A DNA stretch of 21,902 nucleotides from a virus. The stretch is taken from positions 11,330 through 33,231 of the IMG/VR virus record IMGVR_UViG_3300000553_000168. The stretch is one strand, 5' to 3'. Positions 10,748-21,703 of this stretch are shown here, one piece after another. The position numbers and the translations under genes are program-made. The stretch's first letter is position 1. Every line of letters starts with the position of its first letter. The notes under the pieces are model-generated. The model was not told the origin of the DNA, did no database searches, and saw only the letters and a program-made list of their open reading frames with translations.

Positions 10748-11512
10748 ATGAATAGAAACTATAAATATGGACATAAACGGGATGTGGTGGATATAAGAGA
10801 TAGAAAATTTAAAGTTGCCTCTCCAATTTCATTGCCACCTGTCATTGATTTAAGATCATCCCCATTTATGCCAGAAGTATGGGACCAAGGGAAATTGGGT
10901 TCTTGTGTAGCACACTCAACCGGATGCATATTTAATTTTGAACAACGCAAGCAAGGGAGTCCTGATTTCATTCCCAGTCGATTAATGATTTACTATAACG
11001 CTCGATTATTAGAAGAGAATGTAAATAATGATGACGGGTGTCAAATTCGTGATGCTATCAAAGCATTAATTAAGCAAGGTGTGTGTGATGAAACAGAGTG
11101 GGCATATGATGAAAGCAAATTTGCGATTAAGCCATCTGATAATTGTTACATACATGCCGAAAAACATCAAGTAATTCAATATATGAGTGTTCCACAAACA
11201 TTGATTGGTATTAAGACTGCGTTGGTACAAGGATATCCGATATCATTTGGTATACAGATATATGAGAGTTTTGAGAGTGAACAAGTTATTAATAGTGGAA
11301 TAGTACCGATGCCTGATGTGGAACGGGAACAATGTCTTGGTGGACATGCGATAGTAATAGTTGGGTATGATGATAATAAAAAGATATTTATATGTCGCAA
11401 TAGTTGGGGTAATAAAGTTATGATGGGTGGATATTTTACTTTACCATATGGATATGTATTGGTTAATGTGTTGGCAAGTGATTTTTGGATAATACAGAAG
11501 AACGAGGATTAA
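10748..11512 (+). CDS. papain-family (C1) cysteine protease (254 aa)
   Basis: The papain active site is present in order: WDQGKLGSCVAHS (residues 45-57) with oxyanion Q47 and nucleophile C53, GGHAIVIVGYDD (198-209) with H200, and CRNSWG (216-221) with N218. LPPVIDLR (29-36) is the usual start of the mature fold. There is no signal peptide and almost no propeptide (about 28 residues), so it should be active in the cytoplasm or in the virion. Its target is unknown; capsid maturation, host takeover or lysis timing are possibilities. Its TAA overlaps the stop codon of the opposite-strand HNH gene. Confidence 0.85.
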   Translation: MNRNYKYGHKRDVVDIRDRKFKVASPISLPPVIDLRSSPFMPEVWDQGKLGSCVAHSTGCIFNFEQRKQGSPDFIPSRLMIYYNARLLEENVNNDDGCQIRDAIKALIKQGVCDETEWAYDESKFAIKPSDNCYIHAEKHQVIQYMSVPQTLIGIKTALVQGYPISFGIQIYESFESEQVINSGIVPMPDVEREQCLGGHAIVIVGYDDNKKIFICRNSWGNKVMMGGYFTLPYGYVLVNVLASDFWIIQKNED

Positions 11513-12264
11513 TTATGTTTCGTTTTTCCAAAACTAATATTTCTACAATGCTCTTGTGTAAATGTTCGTTTTTTTCCGGTATTATTTTTATGCATTTCTT
11601 TTAATTGTTCTAATTGTTTTTTAGTGGGCGGGCATTTTAATCCTTTATTCCATGGAATTATTTTCGTACGAGATTTTCCAAGCTTAACGTTGTCAATGAA
11701 TGTCTTGTTCATTTTCTTTCCCTTGTTCCAAGAAACCTGACATCCTGATTTTCCTTTATTCCACGGGATTCTTCCTTTACTTGATTTTCCACATCCAGCA
11801 TTAATACAAGATAACCGGCGTTTTCTATTGGATTCTTCCGTTTGTTTTTTTCCAAAATTGGGATTATTTTTTCCCATTTTCATATCACTCAATAATTTTA
11901 TAATTTCTGGCGAATGTTTATAAAATTGTTTGCGTTCTAATTTAAATTTTTCATAGATTTTACTATTAAGATATCTAACATGGCATTTACCACTTTTTGA
12001 TGCCGTATTCATACAATTAAATGCAAATGCCATTTCTCTATTACCATATGTTTTCCATAACATATAATGTGCCAAATAATGCGCTCGTGGTGTTAATTTT
12101 ACCAAATTTATTTTGTTGTTACTTCCACCCATCGATTTTGGAAGGATATGATGGTTTTCTGTGTAAACATCGTCTTCCGGTAGATTTAGTTTGTAATGAT
12201 TGATAAGTTTTAGATATCTTCTATAATAATGCCACGATTTAATCCAATTTACATTTGTTGTCAT
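11509..12264 (-). CDS. HNH homing endonuclease with NUMOD3 repeats (251 aa)
   Basis: The nuclease is near the N-terminus: ENHHILPKSMGGSNNKINLV (residues 36-55, H38/H39 and N49/N50), then LTPRAHYLAHYMLWK (57-71) with H62 and H66. From residue 130 come NUMOD3-type DNA-binding units: GKNNPNFGKKQTEESNRKR (131-149) and three WNKG motifs (168-171, 179-182, 205-208). Typical of homing endonucleases that bind long sites. It begins inside the end of the small MGRKK gene in another frame and converges on the protease gene with overlapping stops. The gene is leftward in a rightward region, a sign of insertion. Confidence 0.88.
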   Translation of the reverse strand: MTTNVNWIKSWHYYRRYLKLINHYKLNLPEDDVYTENHHILPKSMGGSNNKINLVKLTPRAHYLAHYMLWKTYGNREMAFAFNCMNTASKSGKCHVRYLNSKIYEKFKLERKQFYKHSPEIIKLLSDMKMGKNNPNFGKKQTEESNRKRRLSCINAGCGKSSKGRIPWNKGKSGCQVSWNKGKKMNKTFIDNVKLGKSRTKIIPWNKGLKCPPTKKQLEQLKEMHKNNTGKKRTFTQEHCRNISFGKTKHN

Positions 12265-12464: not shown

Positions 12465-12493
12465 TTGACATTTTAGATAATATACAATATATT
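12465..12493 (+). promoter_or_regulatory. sigma70-like promoter upstream of the tmRNA region
   Basis: TTGACA (12465-12470), 17-bp spacer, TATATT (12488-12493), 7 bp to ATG 12501. No better promoter is seen nearer the tmRNA, so the tmRNA may be processed from this transcript. Confidence 0.55.
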
Positions 12494-12500
12494 TAATATT

Positions 12501-12673
12501 ATGAAGAAACAATTAATAGAATTGGCAGAATTATTGAAGAAAATAAAACAAAATCGAGTGCAGATTCTAGGCGGCTTCTTACTATTTTAGAAAAACAAAA
12601 TTTAGTGGCTGCATTTGGTAATAATTTGTCATTAAATGAATTGTGTGACTTTTTAGAAGAAGAGAAGTAACTG
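12501..12673 (+). pseudogene. small gene with a -1 frame break
   Basis: From the ATG the frame reads MKKQLIELAELLKKIKQNR and stops at 12590. The -1 frame continues convincingly from the A-run near 12537-12550: NKTKSSADSRRLLTILEKQN, then FGNNLSLNELCDFLEEEEK, ending at TAA 12671. One extra A would restore a protein of about 57 aa. Either a real frameshift mutation, programmed frameshifting or a sequencing error in a homopolymer. The MKKQLIELAELLKK start loosely recalls the MKKxxLKQLIKE motif downstream. It lies 14 bases before the tmRNA. Confidence 0.5.
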
Positions 12674-12687
12674 ATCTTTGATATGGG

Positions 12688-13123
12688 CCTGAACAGAATC
12701 GACTTAGAGACATGAAGTTGATTGCAAGTCGAGAATGATGGTTGGTCTCGTTAAAAATCCATTAAAACATAAATGCTAACACACTTATGAGTTTCGATTA
12801 CGTTCCTGAGAATGTCGAGACTGTTGCAACTGAAAATGTTGTTGATAGTTTTGTATTCGACTGGAGTGAAGCCGAAGCAATTGCTGCTTAAATTAAGCAA
12901 CACGTTATGTAGATGATTCACGGTAATCTATAATAACGATAATATCGTGACTCGTTCATAATGATTGATTTGCTTGGTATGAATGAGTATAATGTAAATC
13001 CTAGTAATATTGTGGTTGATGTTTACCGGTGGTATTATGAAATCCAAAAACATACAAACTTGTAGTATATTAACGTTGTGGCCTTTACAGGACGCGAATA
13101 GCATCATTTCGCCAGGTCCACCA
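12688..13123 (+). ncRNA. ssrA: phage-encoded tmRNA (one-piece ssrA, 436 nt)
   Basis: The first 7 bases GGGCCTG pair with CAGGTCC (13113-13119) to make the acceptor stem, with the diagnostic G.U third pair for alanyl-tRNA synthetase, followed by encoded ACCA. TCGAC at 12702-12706 matches the conserved 5' tRNA-like segment. GTTGAT (12719-12724) with ATTAAC (about 13068-13073) and CAAGT with ACTTG near 13058-13062 form long-range helix P2. ATGG, then TTGGTCTCG, then CCAT is pseudoknot 1. The resume site is TAAAT-GCT at 12775, and the tag stop lies in a TGCTTAAATTAAGCA hairpin. The T-arm is odd: a GCGAA/TTCGC stem with a 9-base loop instead of TTCRANY. It rescues stalled ribosomes and marks their products for proteolysis. 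Confidence 0.88.
12775..12891 (+). other. tmRNA tag reading frame, 38 residues
   Basis: From the resume codon GCT the frame stays open for 38 codons to TAA (12889-12891). It opens ANTLMSFDYVPENVE and closes DWSEAEAIAA; the C-terminal AIAA resembles the ALAA/AVAA degrons read by ClpXP. The other two frames from the resume site close at once. Most bacterial tags are 8-15 residues, so this one is very long. It is acidic and includes an internal ATG at 12787. Confidence 0.75.
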
Positions 13124-13235
13124 ATTTAAATTAATCAATGGTAAAAAGCATGAAGATGGATACAGAAAGTGCCCATTTAAAGAACAGCGCATTAAACTTG
13201 AACGTTGCCCGAATGCCATCGTAATTGTTGATTAA
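13122..13235 (+). pseudogene. possible 3' gene remnant after the tmRNA
   Basis: A frame without a start codon begins at the tmRNA 3' end and reads QFKLINGKKHEDGYRK, CPFKEQRIKLERCPNAIVIV, D, then TAA. The composition is protein-like. ssrA 3' ends are common integration sites, so a gene cut by an insertion would fit, but chance is not excluded. The bases 13236-13345 hold only an AT-rich leader with the SD for coaD. Confidence 0.25.
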
Positions 13236-13345: not shown

Positions 13346-13861
13346 ATGAATAACATAGGGATTTACGCCGGAAGTTTTGACCCGGTTACCAACGGGCATT
13401 TTTGGATGATTCGTAATGGTTTAAATTTATTTGACCGTCTTATTGTGGCTGTTGGTGTTAATCCGACAAAAAAATCAATGTTTACCGTTGAAGAAAGAAT
13501 GGAAATGCTAAGAGATTATCAATGGTTTCCGGTAACAGAGTTGTATGCAAATAGATTTACAGTTATGTCATTTGAGAATAAATATTTGGTTGAATTTGCT
13601 AAGGAAGTTGGTGCTAATTATATTCTTCGTGGTATTCGTAATTCTACTGACGCTGAATTTGAACGTGGTATGCGTAATATCAATCAGGATTTAGCTCCAG
13701 ATATTCAGACTGTATTTTTGATGCCTCCCCGTGATTTAGCCGAAGTTAGTTCAAGTTTGGTTAAGGGATTAGTTGGACCTGATGGTTGGAAATTGGTGGT
13801 AAGTAATTATGTTAATCCTATGGTTTTGGATATGTTGGAAAAAAAGTATCGAAATACATAA
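13346..13861 (+). CDS. coaD: phosphopantetheine adenylyltransferase (171 aa)
   Basis: The protein opens MNNIGIYAGSFDPVTNGH: the PPAT nucleotidylyltransferase start with T15 and H18 of the TxGH motif. Next come FTVEERMEML, ILRGIRNSTDAEFERGM (R95 equivalent to the conserved RGxR) and SSSLVKGL (135-142), the ATP-binding SSS/TxxR-type motif. Length is close to the bacterial enzyme (about 160). It transfers AMP from ATP to 4'-phosphopantetheine, making dephospho-CoA, the fourth CoA step. An upstream ATG (13277) is rejected because AAAGGA lies seven bases before 13346. In a phage it is an auxiliary metabolic gene that might keep CoA supply up during infection. No other CoA gene is in the window. 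Confidence 0.9.
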   Translation: MNNIGIYAGSFDPVTNGHFWMIRNGLNLFDRLIVAVGVNPTKKSMFTVEERMEMLRDYQWFPVTELYANRFTVMSFENKYLVEFAKEVGANYILRGIRNSTDAEFERGMRNINQDLAPDIQTVFLMPPRDLAEVSSSLVKGLVGPDGWKLVVSNYVNPMVLDMLEKKYRNT

Positions 13862-16133: not shown

Positions 16134-16162
16134 GGGGCATATTGTGAGATATGCTCCTTTTT
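16134..16162 (+). terminator. Rho-independent terminator
   Basis: GGGGCATAT and ATATGCTCC form a 9-bp stem (one G.T) with loop TGTGAG, followed by TTTTT. It closes the 15710-16104 transcript. Confidence 0.85.
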
Positions 16163-16181
16163 GTTGATATGTATTGGTGTT

Positions 16182-16517
16182 ATGGGAAAGAAGGTTAATA
16201 CAGAAAATAGTTTCACACCATTGACATTGCCTGCCAATGACAAGCAATTGGTATCATATGTTAATCAAAACAAGGTGGCACTAATGGAAAACGTTCTTAC
16301 ATCCATTGAATATGGAATTTCCAAGAATTTGCCTATAGTCGAAACGTTTTCATTCGAAGGAACCGATTTTATCATAACAATCAATAGTCACACATTCAAG
16401 GAAAATGTGGAACAGATATATGATTATTATATAAAGAATGAGAAGTATGAGTTATGTCCTCGTGTCGTTCGCTTACTTGAAAAATTAACACATGAAACAC
16501 AAAAAAAGCCGAAATAA
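16182..16517 (+). CDS. hypothetical protein upstream of phoH (111 aa)
   Basis: The preferred start is MGKKVNTENSFTPLTLPAND at 16182. A longer in-frame start at 16161 lies in the terminator tail and is unlikely. The body is helical with a beta hairpin (TFSFEGTDFIITINSHTFKE). No SD is evident. It overlaps the start of the PhoH gene by 26 bases in a different frame, so the two are probably translated together. Unrecognised. Confidence 0.6.
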   Translation: MGKKVNTENSFTPLTLPANDKQLVSYVNQNKVALMENVLTSIEYGISKNLPIVETFSFEGTDFIITINSHTFKENVEQIYDYYIKNEKYELCPRVVRLLEKLTHETQKKPK

Positions 16518-17265
16518 AGACATTGTGGGAACTGCCCCGACAGCAGAAAAGGTTGATACTAGCCCAATCATTCATCAACGCGCAAAAATAAAAAATAATT
16601 TAAGGATTTTTGAGAGACCAGATTTAACAGAAAAACAACAGGATTTTTTACGCCTTGCATTTAGTAAAGATGTAAAGATGATATTTGTATCTGGACCGGC
16701 AGGAACAACCAAAAGTTATCTTGCAGTATATGCTGCACTAAAACTGTTAAATGACAGAAAAATTAGTGATTTAATTTATATTAGAAGTGCGGTTGAATCT
16801 GCTACGAGTCATTTAGGATTCTTACCGGGATTAATTTCTGATAAGATGCATCCATATATACAGCCTCTCATAGACAAGTTGGAAGAATTGATACCCAAGA
16901 ATGAAATTGAGATGTTAAAGAAAGAAGAACGGATTGTTGGGATGCCGATTAATTTTCTTCGTGGTTTGAATTTCAATGCCAAAGCAATTATTGGCGATGA
17001 ATTCCAAAATTGCACATATGAAGAAATTTTTACATTTATTACACGAACCGGAGAATTTTCCAAAGTGTTTATTTTAGGTGATCCTGACCAATCCGATATT
17101 GGTAAGCACAGCGGATTCTCCAAAATGGTCCAACAATTTGATGATGACGAATCAAGAAGTAATGGTATTTACTCTTTTAAATTCGATGAAACTGACATCT
17201 TACGGTCTGGATTGGTGAGGTATATAATTACCAAACTGAATAAATTGAATAAAAAACCCATTTAA
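16492..17265 (+). CDS. phoH: PhoH-like P-loop ATPase (257 aa)
   Basis: After a basic leader, ERPDLTEKQQDFLRLAFSKD opens the PhoH domain. Walker A is GPAGTTKS (residues 68-75), Walker B IIGDEFQN (167-173), and the third motif FILGDPDQSD (193-202). Length and order fit phage PhoH proteins, which are widespread in marine and T4-like phages. The family binds and hydrolyses ATP and is related to helicase cores; a role in RNA metabolism or phosphate stress has been proposed but is unsettled. The walker loop TTK replaces the usual TGK, as seen in phage members. It overlaps the 16182 gene. Confidence 0.88.
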   Translation: MKHKKSRNKDIVGTAPTAEKVDTSPIIHQRAKIKNNLRIFERPDLTEKQQDFLRLAFSKDVKMIFVSGPAGTTKSYLAVYAALKLLNDRKISDLIYIRSAVESATSHLGFLPGLISDKMHPYIQPLIDKLEELIPKNEIEMLKKEERIVGMPINFLRGLNFNAKAIIGDEFQNCTYEEIFTFITRTGEFSKVFILGDPDQSDIGKHSGFSKMVQQFDDDESRSNGIYSFKFDETDILRSGLVRYIITKLNKLNKKPI

Positions 17266-17285: not shown

Positions 17286-18218
17286 ATGAATATACCCCAG
17301 CTTTACGATAGTAAGAAAATAACTGAATTAGCAACATTATCCTCTGCAAGTTTGTCTTGTCAAGATATTGTTCCCATAGTTGACGTATCTGCCAAAGAAA
17401 CAAAATCCATATCTATAACTGAACTGAACAAGGGGCTATACCCATTACATACTTGTTGTTCGGACTATTCCACATTAGCACAATCATCGGTTACTGCGAG
17501 TTATGCAAATAGTGCTGGCAATGCTGTTACTTCTGATTATTCAACAAACGCTGGTTATTCAATTAATTCCGGGTTTGCAGACTGTTCGGGATTTTCCGAT
17601 TGTTCCAATCATGCTACTTGTGCTGATACTGCAAGTTATGCTTTAACTGCCGGTGGTATTACAGGAATTGGTACAGTTGGGACGATTACTAATATCAATG
17701 CCGGTTATGGTATCAGCGTCACTAATCCTTCTGGTCCATCCACCACCGTTATCAACTCCGGTGTAACAAAGATAATTGCAGGGACGGGTATTTCTGTTAA
17801 TAGTAACACCGGGGATGTTACCATAAGTTCTGGCGTCATTGGTAGCAATATTGGGGCTAAGGCATTTATTCTTTTTGATTATCACGGAGATACACAACCA
17901 ATCACATCATCCGTTTTTAATATCAACACATTTAATTCATACGGAACCGGAACATCAAGGGGCTGCGGAGATCCAATTAGATATATAGTAAATTTTACAA
18001 CTCCCATGAATTCTTCAAATTATATTATCAATGGCCAGGGATTTGCAGAAGATTTTCGTGAATACGCTATTCAACTTCTCCCACTAATGCAAACAGGCGG
18101 TTCGTTTAATCTTCCGGTATGTAAGACTCAAAATACGGTATGGTTAACTGGTGTGGGAAATAATGGTGGCATTCATCACGTATATCAAGGATCATTCATG
18201 GTCTTTGAATACCCGTAA
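17286..18218 (+). CDS. tail-fibre-like structural protein with TASYA-type repeats (310 aa)
   Basis: The N-terminal domain MNIPQLYDSKKITELATLSS resembles virion-attachment ends. Residues about 65-120 carry degenerate repeats of the type ASYANSAGNA, SDYSTNAGYS, FADCSGFSDCSNHA and TASYALTAG, which fold as trimeric rods in phage fibres. Then comes GTGISVNSNTGDVTISSG, the VxxGTGIxV...GxVTI pattern of fibre shafts, and a globular C-terminus (from FILFDYHGDTQ) that may bind a receptor or end the trimer. The repeat region is unusually cysteine-rich (CSGFSDCSNHATCAD). Structural or adhesin role is inferred from composition. Confidence 0.75.
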   Translation: MNIPQLYDSKKITELATLSSASLSCQDIVPIVDVSAKETKSISITELNKGLYPLHTCCSDYSTLAQSSVTASYANSAGNAVTSDYSTNAGYSINSGFADCSGFSDCSNHATCADTASYALTAGGITGIGTVGTITNINAGYGISVTNPSGPSTTVINSGVTKIIAGTGISVNSNTGDVTISSGVIGSNIGAKAFILFDYHGDTQPITSSVFNINTFNSYGTGTSRGCGDPIRYIVNFTTPMNSSNYIINGQGFAEDFREYAIQLLPLMQTGGSFNLPVCKTQNTVWLTGVGNNGGIHHVYQGSFMVFEYP

Positions 18219-18228
18219 ATATAAATAG

Positions 18229-18257
18229 TTGACATAATTTCCGTATATTGCTATAGT
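18229..18257 (+). promoter_or_regulatory. sigma70-like promoter for the 18266 gene
   Basis: TTGACA (18229-18234), 17-bp spacer, TATAGT (18252-18257), 8 bp to ATG 18266. A TATAAATA sequence (18221-18227 region) lies just upstream and may be a T4-type late box. Confidence 0.65.
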
Positions 18258-18265
18258 AATAGCAT

Positions 18266-18922
18266 ATGAATTATACAGAAAAAGAACTTGGTGAAAATTA
18301 TAATAAGTTTATTGATTTGATTAAATCGCAATTTACGGGTGACCGACTTAATAAATTGCTTAACCTCTATGGAGACAGTGAGTATGGTTATCAGGTCTCT
18401 ATATCTCCCGCATCACCAAAGGATTACACAAATAACGCATATATTGGTGGCTATATTGACCATGTTATGACACTTCACAAAGCGAGTCTCGGTGTTAAAA
18501 AATTGTGGGAAATTATGGGGGGAATCATTGATTTTACAAGTGAAGAATTAGCATTTTCGGTGATTAATAATGGGCTGGGAATACTTGGTGACAAGGATGT
18601 TGGGGAATATTATCTTCCAAATGATAGCGAATGGCATGTGAAAAATACTGGGACTTTATATAAAACCAATGCTGATTTACAACATATGCTTATCAGTGAT
18701 CGGTCATTATTCACATTGCAAAAATATGGTATTGTATGCACTTGGAAAGAATATCTGGCAATCAAGTTAAGTAATGGTTTGTATAATGAAGGAAACAAAT
18801 CTTATTTGTATACGTTTACTAAAGATATGGATTTGAAAACGAATTTGCCCAAAGTTGTCCACGAAGCATACATGATGGCATACCAGTCAGAAATTGATAT
18901 TGAGAAGCAAAAAACCCTATAA
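18266..18922 (+). CDS. HD-phosphohydrolase-family relative, active site probably lost (218 aa)
   Basis: The segment AYIGGYIDHVMTLHKASLGV, the later YYLPNDSEWHVKNTG, SDRSLFTLQKYGI and LPKVVHEAYMMAYQ match, from memory, an HD-domain family common in marine T4-like phages. In that family I expect an HDLG(K/I)-type metal motif and HQADMMA; here the corresponding stretches read NNGLGILGD and HEAYMMA, so the paired His-Asp and a later Asp are missing. It may be a non-catalytic binding protein. It has its own promoter and terminator, so it is a single-gene unit. The family call is fairly sure, the loss less so without an alignment. Confidence 0.6.
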   Translation: MNYTEKELGENYNKFIDLIKSQFTGDRLNKLLNLYGDSEYGYQVSISPASPKDYTNNAYIGGYIDHVMTLHKASLGVKKLWEIMGGIIDFTSEELAFSVINNGLGILGDKDVGEYYLPNDSEWHVKNTGTLYKTNADLQHMLISDRSLFTLQKYGIVCTWKEYLAIKLSNGLYNEGNKSYLYTFTKDMDLKTNLPKVVHEAYMMAYQSEIDIEKQKTL

Positions 18923-18950
18923 ACGTGACTTAAAATATAATAAATTGAAG

Positions 18951-18982
18951 GAAACTGCTAAAAAATAGCAGTTTCTTTTTTT
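18951..18982 (+). terminator. Rho-independent terminator
   Basis: GAAACTGCTA and TAGCAGTTTC form a perfect 10-bp stem with loop AAAAA, followed by seven T. It ends the 18266-18922 unit. Confidence 0.9.
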
Positions 18983-19007
18983 ATATTCATATATATTGGT
19001 CTACATA

Positions 19008-19934
19008 ATGAAGAAAAATACTCTGTTCCCTCTAATACTTATATCCTCCGCTTTAGCATTATCCGCATGTGCCGGATATTATTCCGTATATGGAATTGCA
19101 AATTTGTTTTCGGGGGCAGTGATTCAAATATCGATGATGATGGGACTATTGGAAATATCCAAGTTGGTATGTTCCAGTTACCTATTTAGATATTGGAATA
19201 CATGTAAAGTATTCTTAAAAACATATATGGCTATTGCTGTGATCGTATTGATGCTTATTACAAGTTCAGGAATATTCGGGTATTTGTCAGCAGCATACCA
19301 AAAATCAGAAATCCAAAACAAAATATTGACACAAAAGATAGAATTGATAGACGGTCAAAAATCTACATATAATAATCAGATTGAACAATATAAAAAACGT
19401 ATAGATTTCAATACACAACTTCGAGAGTCACAGGAAAAAAGACTTAACGAGGCATTGAAGAACGATACTATTACAAAAAATGTTGTTCAACTACAGGAAG
19501 TGCAGAGTCAATCGTCAGAATTAATCGCAAAGACAGATAAGGATATTGCTGACTTGACCAAGAATATACAGACAACTCTTGACAGTGTGAAATCATTAGA
19601 TAAGGATATGTTTGATTTAAAGATAGAGTCTTATAAACAGAAAGACATCCTTACCTTCCAATTCGTGGCTGAGATATTTGGAACTACTATTAATAAGGTA
19701 GTAAAATGGTTAATTATAATGTTAATCTTTGTGTTTGATCCGCTTGCTATCTGTATGTTGTTAGCATATAATTCCATAATTTATACCGACGAGAAACCAT
19801 CAACAATTCCCAGTGTCGAGGCTAAACCGACAGAAACCATTCCTTCATTGAAGGAAGAACTTCCAAAAACAATCGAAGATTCTAAGTTTAAGAAAATACT
19901 AAAGAAGCCATTTGGAAGATTTTACGGTAGATAA
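19008..19934 (+). CDS. membrane protein with long coiled coil (308 aa)
   Basis: The start MKKNTLFPLILISSALALSA is hydrophobic and leads into a second hydrophobic stretch (residues about 30-50). A third membrane segment is near 74-94 (MAIAVIVLMLITSSGIFGYL). Residues about 95-205 are a charged coiled coil (KIELIDGQKSTYNNQIEQYK and onward), followed by another membrane span near 225-252 and a basic tail (KKILKKPFGRFYGR). The N-terminal SACAG is not a convincing lipobox. Similar proteins occur in T4-like marine phages. Possible roles are inner-membrane remodelling, holin-like regulation or a tail-associated rod; none is shown. No SD is seen. Confidence 0.65.
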   Translation: MKKNTLFPLILISSALALSACAGYYSVYGIANLFSGAVIQISMMMGLLEISKLVCSSYLFRYWNTCKVFLKTYMAIAVIVLMLITSSGIFGYLSAAYQKSEIQNKILTQKIELIDGQKSTYNNQIEQYKKRIDFNTQLRESQEKRLNEALKNDTITKNVVQLQEVQSQSSELIAKTDKDIADLTKNIQTTLDSVKSLDKDMFDLKIESYKQKDILTFQFVAEIFGTTINKVVKWLIIMLIFVFDPLAICMLLAYNSIIYTDEKPSTIPSVEAKPTETIPSLKEELPKTIEDSKFKKILKKPFGRFYGR

Positions 19935-19997
19935 ATTAAAATAATGTTATTGTAAAATTCGAGACTATATAAGAGAAATGATATGGAGAATACTATT

Positions 19998-20135
19998 ATG
20001 AGTGAAATGGATGTTAAAGATGCTATATGTCAATTGAAATTCGCAGTGAGACATGAGGAATGGTCATCTGTTAAGGATGTTATAGAATATTTACAAGATT
20101 TCTTAGAACCAGAAGATTTAGAAGAAGAGGAGTAA
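19998..20135 (+). CDS. small acidic hypothetical protein (45 aa)
   Basis: ATG 19998 with GGAG nine bases upstream; an in-frame ATG at 19983 is the alternative. Begins MSEMDVKDAICQLKFAVRHE and ends in an acidic tail (EPEDLEEEE). Mainly helical. The GAGGAG at its 3' end serves as SD for the next gene. Function unknown. Confidence 0.55.
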   Translation: MSEMDVKDAICQLKFAVRHEEWSSVKDVIEYLQDFLEPEDLEEEE

Positions 20136-20138
20136 TAT

Positions 20139-20459
20139 ATGATAATTGTTATACTCAGTGTAATCACTACAATATTCGCCGCAACTATTTTATTTCTTGG
20201 TGTTGCATTAAATGCACAAGTAACTAAAGTAGAGAATCTTGAGAAAGAACTTGACAAGTATGATGAATATGTGTTAGAGTATCATAACATGTTGAAAGAG
20301 ACTTATATCCGACTAAAAGAAGTAGATGATAGGAACTTATTTGAAAAAGATGATGATGTTGGTGGAACGTTTAGAGACATAGTTAATATCATTGAGGAGA
20401 TAAGTAGACGGAGTGACATTGTAACAGATGCTTCCAAAGTTGAAAAGACCGATATTTGA
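20139..20459 (+). CDS. single-pass membrane protein with coiled coil (106 aa)
   Basis: Residues 1-27 (MIIVILSVITTIFAATILFL and on) form one membrane anchor. A coiled coil follows (VENLEKELDKYDEYVLEYHN) and then an acidic helix-rich end. The short N-terminal anchor without a lysine start is compatible with a spanin- or Rz-like inner-membrane protein, but no partner is seen, so this is speculation. A strong SD lies seven bases before the ATG. Confidence 0.6.
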   Translation: MIIVILSVITTIFAATILFLGVALNAQVTKVENLEKELDKYDEYVLEYHNMLKETYIRLKEVDDRNLFEKDDDVGGTFRDIVNIIEEISRRSDIVTDASKVEKTDI

Positions 20460-20463
20460 TAAT

Positions 20464-21294
20464 ATGAAAAAAACCAAAGCTTCCCAAAGAATAAACAGAA
20501 AGGTAAAGAAGATATTAAATAAGAAATCAGTTAAAAAGATTAAAGTGGCAAAAGTAGTGCCGGTTCTAAAAGTAGAAGAACCTAAAAAGACAAGAAAACC
20601 CTCCATTGAAAAGATGTATTTTACCAAGGATACTGAGGATGCAATTATAGCATACAATAAGGAACCTGACCAGACAAAGAGAGAAGAACTTTATAATAGT
20701 AAAATTAAACATTCATTTGAGAAATTGGTAGAGAACATTTACAATACATTTAAATTTACATATTTTGAGGTTGGTCCGTTGGATGTCCAGAAAGAAACAC
20801 TTTCTCATTTAGTAGCTAATATGGACAAGTATGTGGAGGGGAAGGGCAAAGCATTTTCATATTTTAGTATAATTGCCAAGAATTATTTGATATTTCATAA
20901 CAATACCAATTACAAACGATTCAATAGACATGTGGATATTACGGAAAATCACGAAGATCACGGGATTCAGTTACAAACAAACGACAAACACCGAGAACAT
21001 CTCCAAAACCGGGAATTTTTGGATTTGGTTATAGGATTCTGGGACACAAATCTGGGAAAAGTGTTCAAGAAAACAAGGGACTTGAAGATTGCAAATGCTG
21101 TGATAGAAATTTTCAGGTATGTCGATAACATTTCATCATTCAACAAGAAAACTTTATATCTGTACATTAGGGAAATATCGGACTGTAAGACTTCACAGAT
21201 AACTAAAGTTATTAATAAGATGAAACCTTATCAAAAACAGATAACCGAGAACTATCTTAATAATGGGCATTTGTTGAAAAATTTTAACAAATAA
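20464..21294 (+). CDS. 55: late sigma factor, T4 gp55-like (276 aa)
   Basis: A basic N-terminal tail (MKKTKASQRINRKVKKILNK) precedes a sigma-region-2-like domain: YFTKDTEDAIIAYNKEPDQT (52-71), KLVENIYNTFKF (87-98), then GKAFSYFSIIAKNYLIFHNN (128-147), the signature of gp55-type factors. The C-terminal 110 residues are longer than in T4 (gp55 has 185 residues) and have a helix-turn-helix-like end. The family joins host RNA polymerase to late promoters. An ATG at 20428 is possible but overlaps the preceding gene further. TATTTATA/T boxes in the window may be its targets. Confidence 0.75.
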   Translation: MKKTKASQRINRKVKKILNKKSVKKIKVAKVVPVLKVEEPKKTRKPSIEKMYFTKDTEDAIIAYNKEPDQTKREELYNSKIKHSFEKLVENIYNTFKFTYFEVGPLDVQKETLSHLVANMDKYVEGKGKAFSYFSIIAKNYLIFHNNTNYKRFNRHVDITENHEDHGIQLQTNDKHREHLQNREFLDLVIGFWDTNLGKVFKKTRDLKIANAVIEIFRYVDNISSFNKKTLYLYIREISDCKTSQITKVINKMKPYQKQITENYLNNGHLLKNFNK

Positions 21295-21313
21295 GACAAA
21301 CTATACACTATAT

Positions 21314-21703
21314 ATGGGTATGGATTTATCAGAATTTGAAATTTATAAGGGGAAGACCTTTGCATCTTTATGTAAAGATATTATAACCAATCAGAACAAA
21401 AAACGAGATCAATTGGATATATTGATTGATGAATTGCGGGGATTTGTCAAGACTGCCAATGATGCTTATACAATCATTCCATGTATTCGAGACTATTTTG
21501 ATATTGGTGTTAAGAATGATGAACAATTGGTAAAGTTGGCAATGGTAATCCAACGAATTATATGTAAAAGCGGATCTGATACTGATGATTCTGGTTCTTT
21601 ATCTCTGACAGATGAAGAACGGAAACAATTGATGGAAGAAGTTGATTCCGTTAAGAAAGCCGTCGAAGATCCCGTAAAATTTACATATAAAAAAGAGGAG
21701 TAA
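21314..21703 (+). CDS. conserved hypothetical phage protein (129 aa)
   Basis: Begins MGMDLSEFEIYKGKTFASLC. An all-helical protein: helices near KDIITNQNKKRDQLDILIDE, DAYTIIPCIRDYF and NDEQLVKLAMVIQRIICKS, ending in an acidic Lys/Glu tail. From memory, proteins of this kind stand beside baseplate genes in marine T4-like phages, but I cannot name it. GAGGAG at its end is the SD of the next gene. Confidence 0.6.
   Translation: MGMDLSEFEIYKGKTFASLCKDIITNQNKKRDQLDILIDELRGFVKTANDAYTIIPCIRDYFDIGVKNDEQLVKLAMVIQRIICKSGSDTDDSGSLSLTDEERKQLMEEVDSVKKAVEDPVKFTYKKEE

Follow-up and report, generated by a model that had tools for sequence, protein, structure and literature searches.

The question raised by this locus is whether a tmRNA-like gene in viral DNA, with a tag frame of 38 codons, is a functional tmRNA, and where its long tag comes from. 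The window, which is the whole stretch analysed (21,902 nt; positions 11,330 to 33,231), is part of IMG/VR record IMGVR_UViG_3300000553_000168, a record of viral class with 33,231 bases. The Rfam model RF00023 matches a full-length tmRNA at 12685–13123 on the plus strand (82 bits, E 9.8e-31, model positions 1–374; curated cut-off 47 bits). The initial annotation, which was made from the sequence alone, had proposed this search together with an ARAGORN run, which reported neither a tRNA nor a tmRNA in the window. It had also placed the gene start at 12688, which is 3 nt too far 3´, as the acceptor stem begins at 12685. The twin IMG/VR contig 3300020711_000112 is identical over 8,898 bp, and the tmRNA lies inside this shared stretch. 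The gene is made up as follows:

12685–13123, plus strand: tmRNA (ssrA) gene, 439 nt, matched by RF00023
12685–12691, plus strand: 5´ strand of the acceptor stem, GGGCCTG, with G3 at 12687; 7/7 pairs with 13113–13119
12730–12763, plus strand: pseudoknot 1, CGAG (12730–12733) with CTCG (12747–12750) and GATGG (12737–12741) with CCATT (12759–12763)
12770–12777, plus strand: resume signal TAAAT (12770–12774) and resume codon GCT (12775–12777), aligned with related tmRNAs
12775–12891, plus strand: tag reading frame, 38 codons and TAA
13094–13112, plus strand: T-arm GCGAA-TAGCATCAT-TTCGC, with a non-canonical 9-nt loop
13113–13123, plus strand: 3´ strand of the acceptor stem, CAGGTCC (U70 at 13117), and encoded ACCA (13120–13123)

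The features of alanine identity are present, which include the 7-bp acceptor stem, the G3·U70 pair and the CCA end. Both stems of pseudoknot 1 are found, and the Rfam alignment contains the long P2 helix with a few non-standard pairs. These elements had been recognized correctly in the initial annotation, including the G·U third pair and the ACCA end. The parts are arranged in the standard order (model positions 1–374) and not in that of the circularly permuted two-piece form, in which the 3´ half of the tRNA-like domain comes first. Judged by its sequence, the gene truly belongs to the tmRNA family and stands out by its tag. It is likely that 12685–13123 is a functional phage tmRNA that works by the known mechanism and carries a lineage-specific enlarged tag.

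The tag frame translates to ANTLMSFDYVPENVETVATENVVDSFVFDWSEAEAIAA followed by the stop, which is 38 codons with an AIAA-UAA end, and the stop lies near P5. An open frame of this length is expected by chance in about 5% of cases from the base composition and in 6.6% of shuffles, and the length alone (about 5–7% by chance) was rejected as proof of a tag. When the codons were scored by the codon use of the long ORFs of the window, the coding log-likelihood of the tag frame is +10.2 bits, and that of the five other frames is −12.7 bits or less. None of the 20,000 shuffles matches the score of the tag frame, in which 20/38 codons start with G. The tag frame is the one frame supported by codon composition. 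The register of the resume codon is identical, base for base, in related tmRNAs (AACATTAACT followed by GCT, compared with AACATAAAT followed by GCT). The UAAAU-resume codon arrangement is also present in the tmRNAs of the huge phage LR756500 and contig L127, and the Lak-B2 tmRNA has a similar TTAAAT. GCT 12775 after TAAAT, as well as the start, length, AIAA end and acidic character of the tag, are as initially annotated.

The genes around the tmRNA are of phage type, and the region includes the following features:

12465–12493, plus strand: sigma-70-like promoter TTGACA-17-TATATT, with 11/12 consensus matches (9 sites versus 7.1 expected in the region)
13346–13861, plus strand: coaD-like pantetheine-phosphate adenylyltransferase (CTP_transf_like; PF01467, E 5.3e-18), directly downstream of the tmRNA; phage homologues are so annotated
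16161–17265, plus strand: small conserved gene (16161–16517) and phoH (16492–17265; PF02562, E 1.1e-46), with 57–65% identity in kin; the anchor of synteny
17286–21703, plus strand: downstream genes, whose order is conserved in kin (tblastn 35–63% identity in L272–L275, L278, L279, L282, L284–L287 and L292)

BLAST of the tmRNA and of the tag against 50,697 phage records returned nothing useful. Patterns for the 5´ end, the region from pseudoknot 1 to the resume codon, the T-arm and a degenerate tag, when scanned against IMG/VR, brought up the twin contig alone among mostly chance matches, and the twin contig was the sole match to a coaD probe. A general tmRNA pattern scan yielded the viral contig L249, which encodes a 33-residue tag and a PhoH that is 50–51% identical to that of the window; 80 viral loci were then gathered by PhoH alignment. 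The loci with 57–65% PhoH identity share the gene order of the window (the small gene at 16161, phoH, and the genes at 17286, 18266, 18996, 20139, 20428 and 21314). In most syntenic loci, the tmRNA shares the strand of phoH and precedes it by 1–5 kb. The distance is larger on the L288 and L293 contigs, and the tmRNA of L249 is encoded on the strand opposite to phoH. By this gene order, the window is a member of a group of uncultured phages with a conserved arrangement around phoH. In the PhoH tree, the window pairs with a contig that bears a 25-residue tag (97/91 support); the tree does not settle the order of the deeper branches, nor with it the ancestral tag length. In L293 (5720–7525) and L312 (5726–7543), tblastn recovers phoH in two pieces with about 1 kb between them, which looks like the effect of an insertion. 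A search of bacterial genomes for the host gave one distant PhoH match on a gammaproteobacterial MAG contig (38% identity), which is too weak to name a host.

Long acidic tags are encoded by 20/20 complete tmRNAs on contigs of the group, a count that takes in the window and some near-identical sequences. The tags have 19/20, 25, 30, 33 or 38 residues. One form is AEDNVVSYDFSYD(D/E)VVA(L/I)AA and close variants (19–20 residues), and the tags of 25, 30 and 33 residues belong to L293, L288 and L249, respectively. The kin tags found through phoH are AEDNVVSYDFSYDEVVALAA, AKENVVSYDFSYEDVAAVVA, AKNVIAYDFIPVEEEVLVVA, ANRLSQLAAMDEVDLSVDCEELAIA, ANNDISEMLGEISANPDAVLAEFASENVLV and ADNTDSILAEAEHIFNNADEYLAGIEDEMLLAA. 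Many differences between the tags of close kin are synonymous or conservative (e.g. TAT/TAC, GAC/GAT/GAA and CTT/ATT/GTT). The tags of the window and its kin are net acidic (−3 to −9), and the C-terminus is hydrophobic-Ala-Ala in the window and most kin and VVA, VLV or AIA in some kin. Enlarged acidic tags are a trait of the phage group.

The other phage tmRNAs that we checked mostly have tags of 8–13 residues. Outside the group, long tags are found in L109 (18 residues), L113 (19), L126 (26) and L127 (41), and these records contain no related PhoH; long tags therefore arose more than once. The tmRNA of L127, an unrelated viral contig (3670–4093, minus strand), encodes the strongly acidic (net −11), helix-like tag GEGYNTVEELLEAAREEYAVSQVIEEATALYGELEELEMAA, of which ARAGORN reports the last 28 residues only; the window tag is therefore not the longest found. 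L134 and L136, where the ARAGORN calls lack an Ala-Ala end and have a poor 5´ part, were left out of the tally, as was L128 with its unclear frame. A 120-locus scan, which was swamped by host tmRNAs beside enterobacterial prophages, was not used for phage tags except for L249. Published tags range from 8 to 35 residues (PMC8012679, PMC3968760), with 10 as the most frequent length (PMC11915505). The initial annotation gave 8–15 residues as usual; measured against the published range, 38 residues is just past the upper limit and not far outside it. The description of ssrA as rare in phages requires a qualification: the gene is uncommon, yet well known, as tmRNA is present in 402/18,146 phage genomes (PMC9004378).

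New here are the long tags common to a phage group and an insertion of 18 codons in the window that resembles a second tag copy. When the tmRNAs are aligned, the kin tag falls on the second part of the tag in the window, which has 54 extra bases, exactly 18 codons in frame:

12775–12828, plus strand: first tag unit ANTLMSFDYVPENVETVA, the 54-nt in-frame segment that is extra compared with 20-codon tags and corresponds to a 54-column gap in kin
12829–12888, plus strand: second tag unit TENVVDSFVFDWSEAEAIAA, which resembles kin tags

Compared with the kin tag by global shuffles, the first unit gives p 4e-4 and the second unit p 8e-4. The two-unit fit of the window tag, with the split point free and the ends fixed in the shuffles as well, reaches a score of 69 (shuffle mean 28, maximum 62; p 3e-4). 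Such a fit is absent from three control tags (L249, L127 and L354), which restricts our claim of duplication to the window. Direct comparison of the two parts of the window tag gives a weak resemblance (p 0.02 global, 0.13 local). An in-frame duplication of the 20-residue tag, followed by divergence, is therefore a probable but unproven origin of the tag length, and the one that we favour.

In known trans-translation, the tmRNA is charged with alanine and delivered by SmpB and EF-Tu; the ribosome then switches to the resume codon and translates the tag, and release and proteolysis follow (PMC8012679, PMC3968760). In the window, the phage tmRNA would be transcribed during infection and loaded with alanine by the host AlaRS via G3·U70. 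Host SmpB and EF-Tu would bind the charged tmRNA, which would enter ribosomes stalled at broken mRNA ends. The ribosome would switch to GCT 12775, add Ala and 38 residues, and be freed at the UAA at 12889. The tag itself would most likely have gained its second 18-codon copy in frame. LAA is a ClpXP-type signal in most bacteria (PMC9382460), and the LAA-like Ile-Ala-Ala at the C-terminus would most likely send the product to ClpXP. Since the tag retains a hydrophobic-Ala-Ala end, the usual ClpXP-type signal appears to be kept, and the tag is probably still directed to ClpXP. The extra acidic residues may provide a longer unstructured lead for the protease, provide an adaptor site or have no effect.

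The SmpB search (PF01668) covered the 33-kb record and 18 related records, which are mostly fragments but include one of 354 kb, and gave no match in any of them; the same search recovers SmpB in Lak-B2 as the positive control. From these results we infer the use of host SmpB, and the phage tmRNA probably depends on it; host AlaRS and EF-Tu would be needed as well. The initial reading that the phage supplies its own ribosome-rescue system holds for the tmRNA, which is phage-encoded, but is overstated with respect to SmpB.

A different role of the tag, raised in the initial annotation as a change of protease or a phage factor that holds the tagged protein, is unlikely, although it fares better than the other alternatives. 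The tmRNA would be real, and the tag would mainly stabilise, sequester or recruit, with the acidic extension bound by a factor of the phage or the host, or by some protease instead of ClpXP. The recurrence of long acidic tags in the group and in the unrelated L127 is consistent with this role, as are the kin tags with VVA, VLV or AIA in place of LAA at the C-terminus. Mollicutes ssrA (e.g. Mesoplasma florum), like that of the window, encodes a tag far longer than 10 residues, and Lon is the protease that reads the long tag of Mesoplasma (PMC9382460). The Mollicutes tags, however, end in NYAFA, whereas the AIAA end of the window is nearer to the ClpXP-type LAA, and the window and most kin keep the hydrophobic-Ala-Ala C-terminus. 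Short of a systematic search, no candidate partner for binding emerged. We regard as equally improbable the extension of this idea, in which the enlarged acidic tag of this group would be a phage-specific recruitment module that routes phage-rescued proteins unlike those rescued by the host tmRNA, and the doubled tag of the window would serve an adaptor or protease as a two-site ligand.

The main doubt on function comes from the D-loop and T-loop, since known tmRNAs make use of the contacts between them in binding SmpB, and E. coli tmRNA needs these contacts for it (PMC3968760). The D-loop of the window contains AG in place of the consensus GG, which, like the 9-nt T-loop, had been missed in the initial annotation. 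An AG D-loop is also found, together with the 9-nt T-loop GTGCGACTC, in L272, L276, L285 and L298; this T-loop also allows a drawing in which a 6-bp stem closes a 7-nt loop. The TAGCATCAT and GTGCGACTC loops alike contain GC where UC (positions 55–56) is expected. The AG D-loop and the 9-nt T-loop co-occur in the sequences seen, and the other kin have GG and mostly TTC loops. Kin that score 102–110 bits in Rfam likewise deviate from the canonical D-loop GG and T-loop UUCRA, which indicates that the canonical contacts are not strictly needed for membership of the tmRNA family. The tmRNAs of L272 and L278 have near-identical middles and differing ends, and the 9-nt type is scattered across the PhoH tree, which points to a swap of the ends of the tRNA-like domain (TLD) among kin tmRNAs. 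The near-identical tags in both types argue that the 9-nt and canonical T-loops both work.

The non-canonical loops would also suit a decoy RNA that occupies SmpB or ribosomes and thereby blocks host trans-translation, and so would the SmpB result in the record and its 18 relatives. This role has been suggested for mycobacteriophage DS6A, whose TLD-only RNA, also a phage-borne tmRNA relative, has no mRNA-like domain; a DS6A-like RNA inhibits tmRNA, and the host tmRNA is the presumed target (PMC4131195). In contrast, the window keeps the full tag frame. A decoy requires no mRNA-like domain, resume signal or coding-constrained tag, all of which are kept in the window and kin, and near-identical tags are found with canonical and 9-nt T-loops (L278 and L272), which makes a decoy quite improbable. 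Slightly less credible still is a real tmRNA with a shorter tag, in which the 54-nt insertion would be a structural hairpin or be skipped, and translation would resume near the second unit. The tag region does form a hairpin (z −2.4 versus shuffles) and kin tags have 20 residues, but the second unit has no TAAxT-like signal ahead of it, the first unit is coding by its composition and resembles kin tags, and the resume site is aligned with kin. A decayed pseudogene, suggested by the odd T-loop and an Rfam score below those of kin (82 versus 83–119 bits), can virtually be dismissed because the acceptor stem, CCA, pseudoknot 1 and resume signal are intact, the tag is open with a coding signal, and kin with equally odd T-loops have conserved tags.

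The functional tmRNA with an enlarged tag, which we prefer, resembles the bacterial one-piece tmRNA (RF00023) in its TLD with G3·U70, CCA and pseudoknot 1, in a resume codon that follows a UAAxU motif, and in a tag that ends in hydrophobic-Ala-Ala-UAA. It differs in its 38-codon tag (usual 10; range 8–35) and 9-nt T-loop, and in being phage-encoded and missed by ARAGORN. Phage-borne tmRNAs, mostly without a phage SmpB, are also known from Bacillus phage G, mycobacteriophages (e.g. Rey), Lak megaphages, the huge phages LR756511 and LR756500, and OM43 phage Melnitz, the last of which is a permuted two-piece form (PMC9004378). In contrast to the window record, Lak-B2 contains a phage SmpB, and the tags read in these phage tmRNAs have 9–13 residues versus 38 in the window. 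Tags of two to four times the usual length in a phage group whose other parts would come from the host bear on why phages carry tmRNAs, and a swap of the tag would directly test its effect on protein fate or phage growth. Since ARAGORN, a common gene finder, does not detect such tmRNAs, phages probably have more long tags and odd T-loops than have been counted.

Several minor observations were made. On either side of the tmRNA lies an open frame that looks coding but lacks a usual start codon (12500–12667 and 13110–13232, both plus strand), the second of which runs out of the tmRNA 3´ end; neither has convincing homologues in the loci compared. ARAGORN also missed a tRNA-like gene in L080 (10484–10600, minus strand; G000:C1:10484-10600, outside the window), which scores 45.9 bits in Rfam and whose anticodon loop carries about 46 inserted nt. 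A Lak megaphage tmRNA (L090, 1501–1910, plus strand) scores 47.3 bits, which is at the Rfam cut-off, and its tag reads DDEIEFRMAA by eye; an SmpB gene accompanies the Lak tmRNA (L090 and L098, the latter MK250021.1, Lak-B2). A homing endonuclease gene with NUMOD3 is located near the tmRNA at 11509–12264 on the minus strand of the window, and an ORF that looks like GIY-YIG by eye lies upstream in the record (L080, 3536–4444, plus strand).
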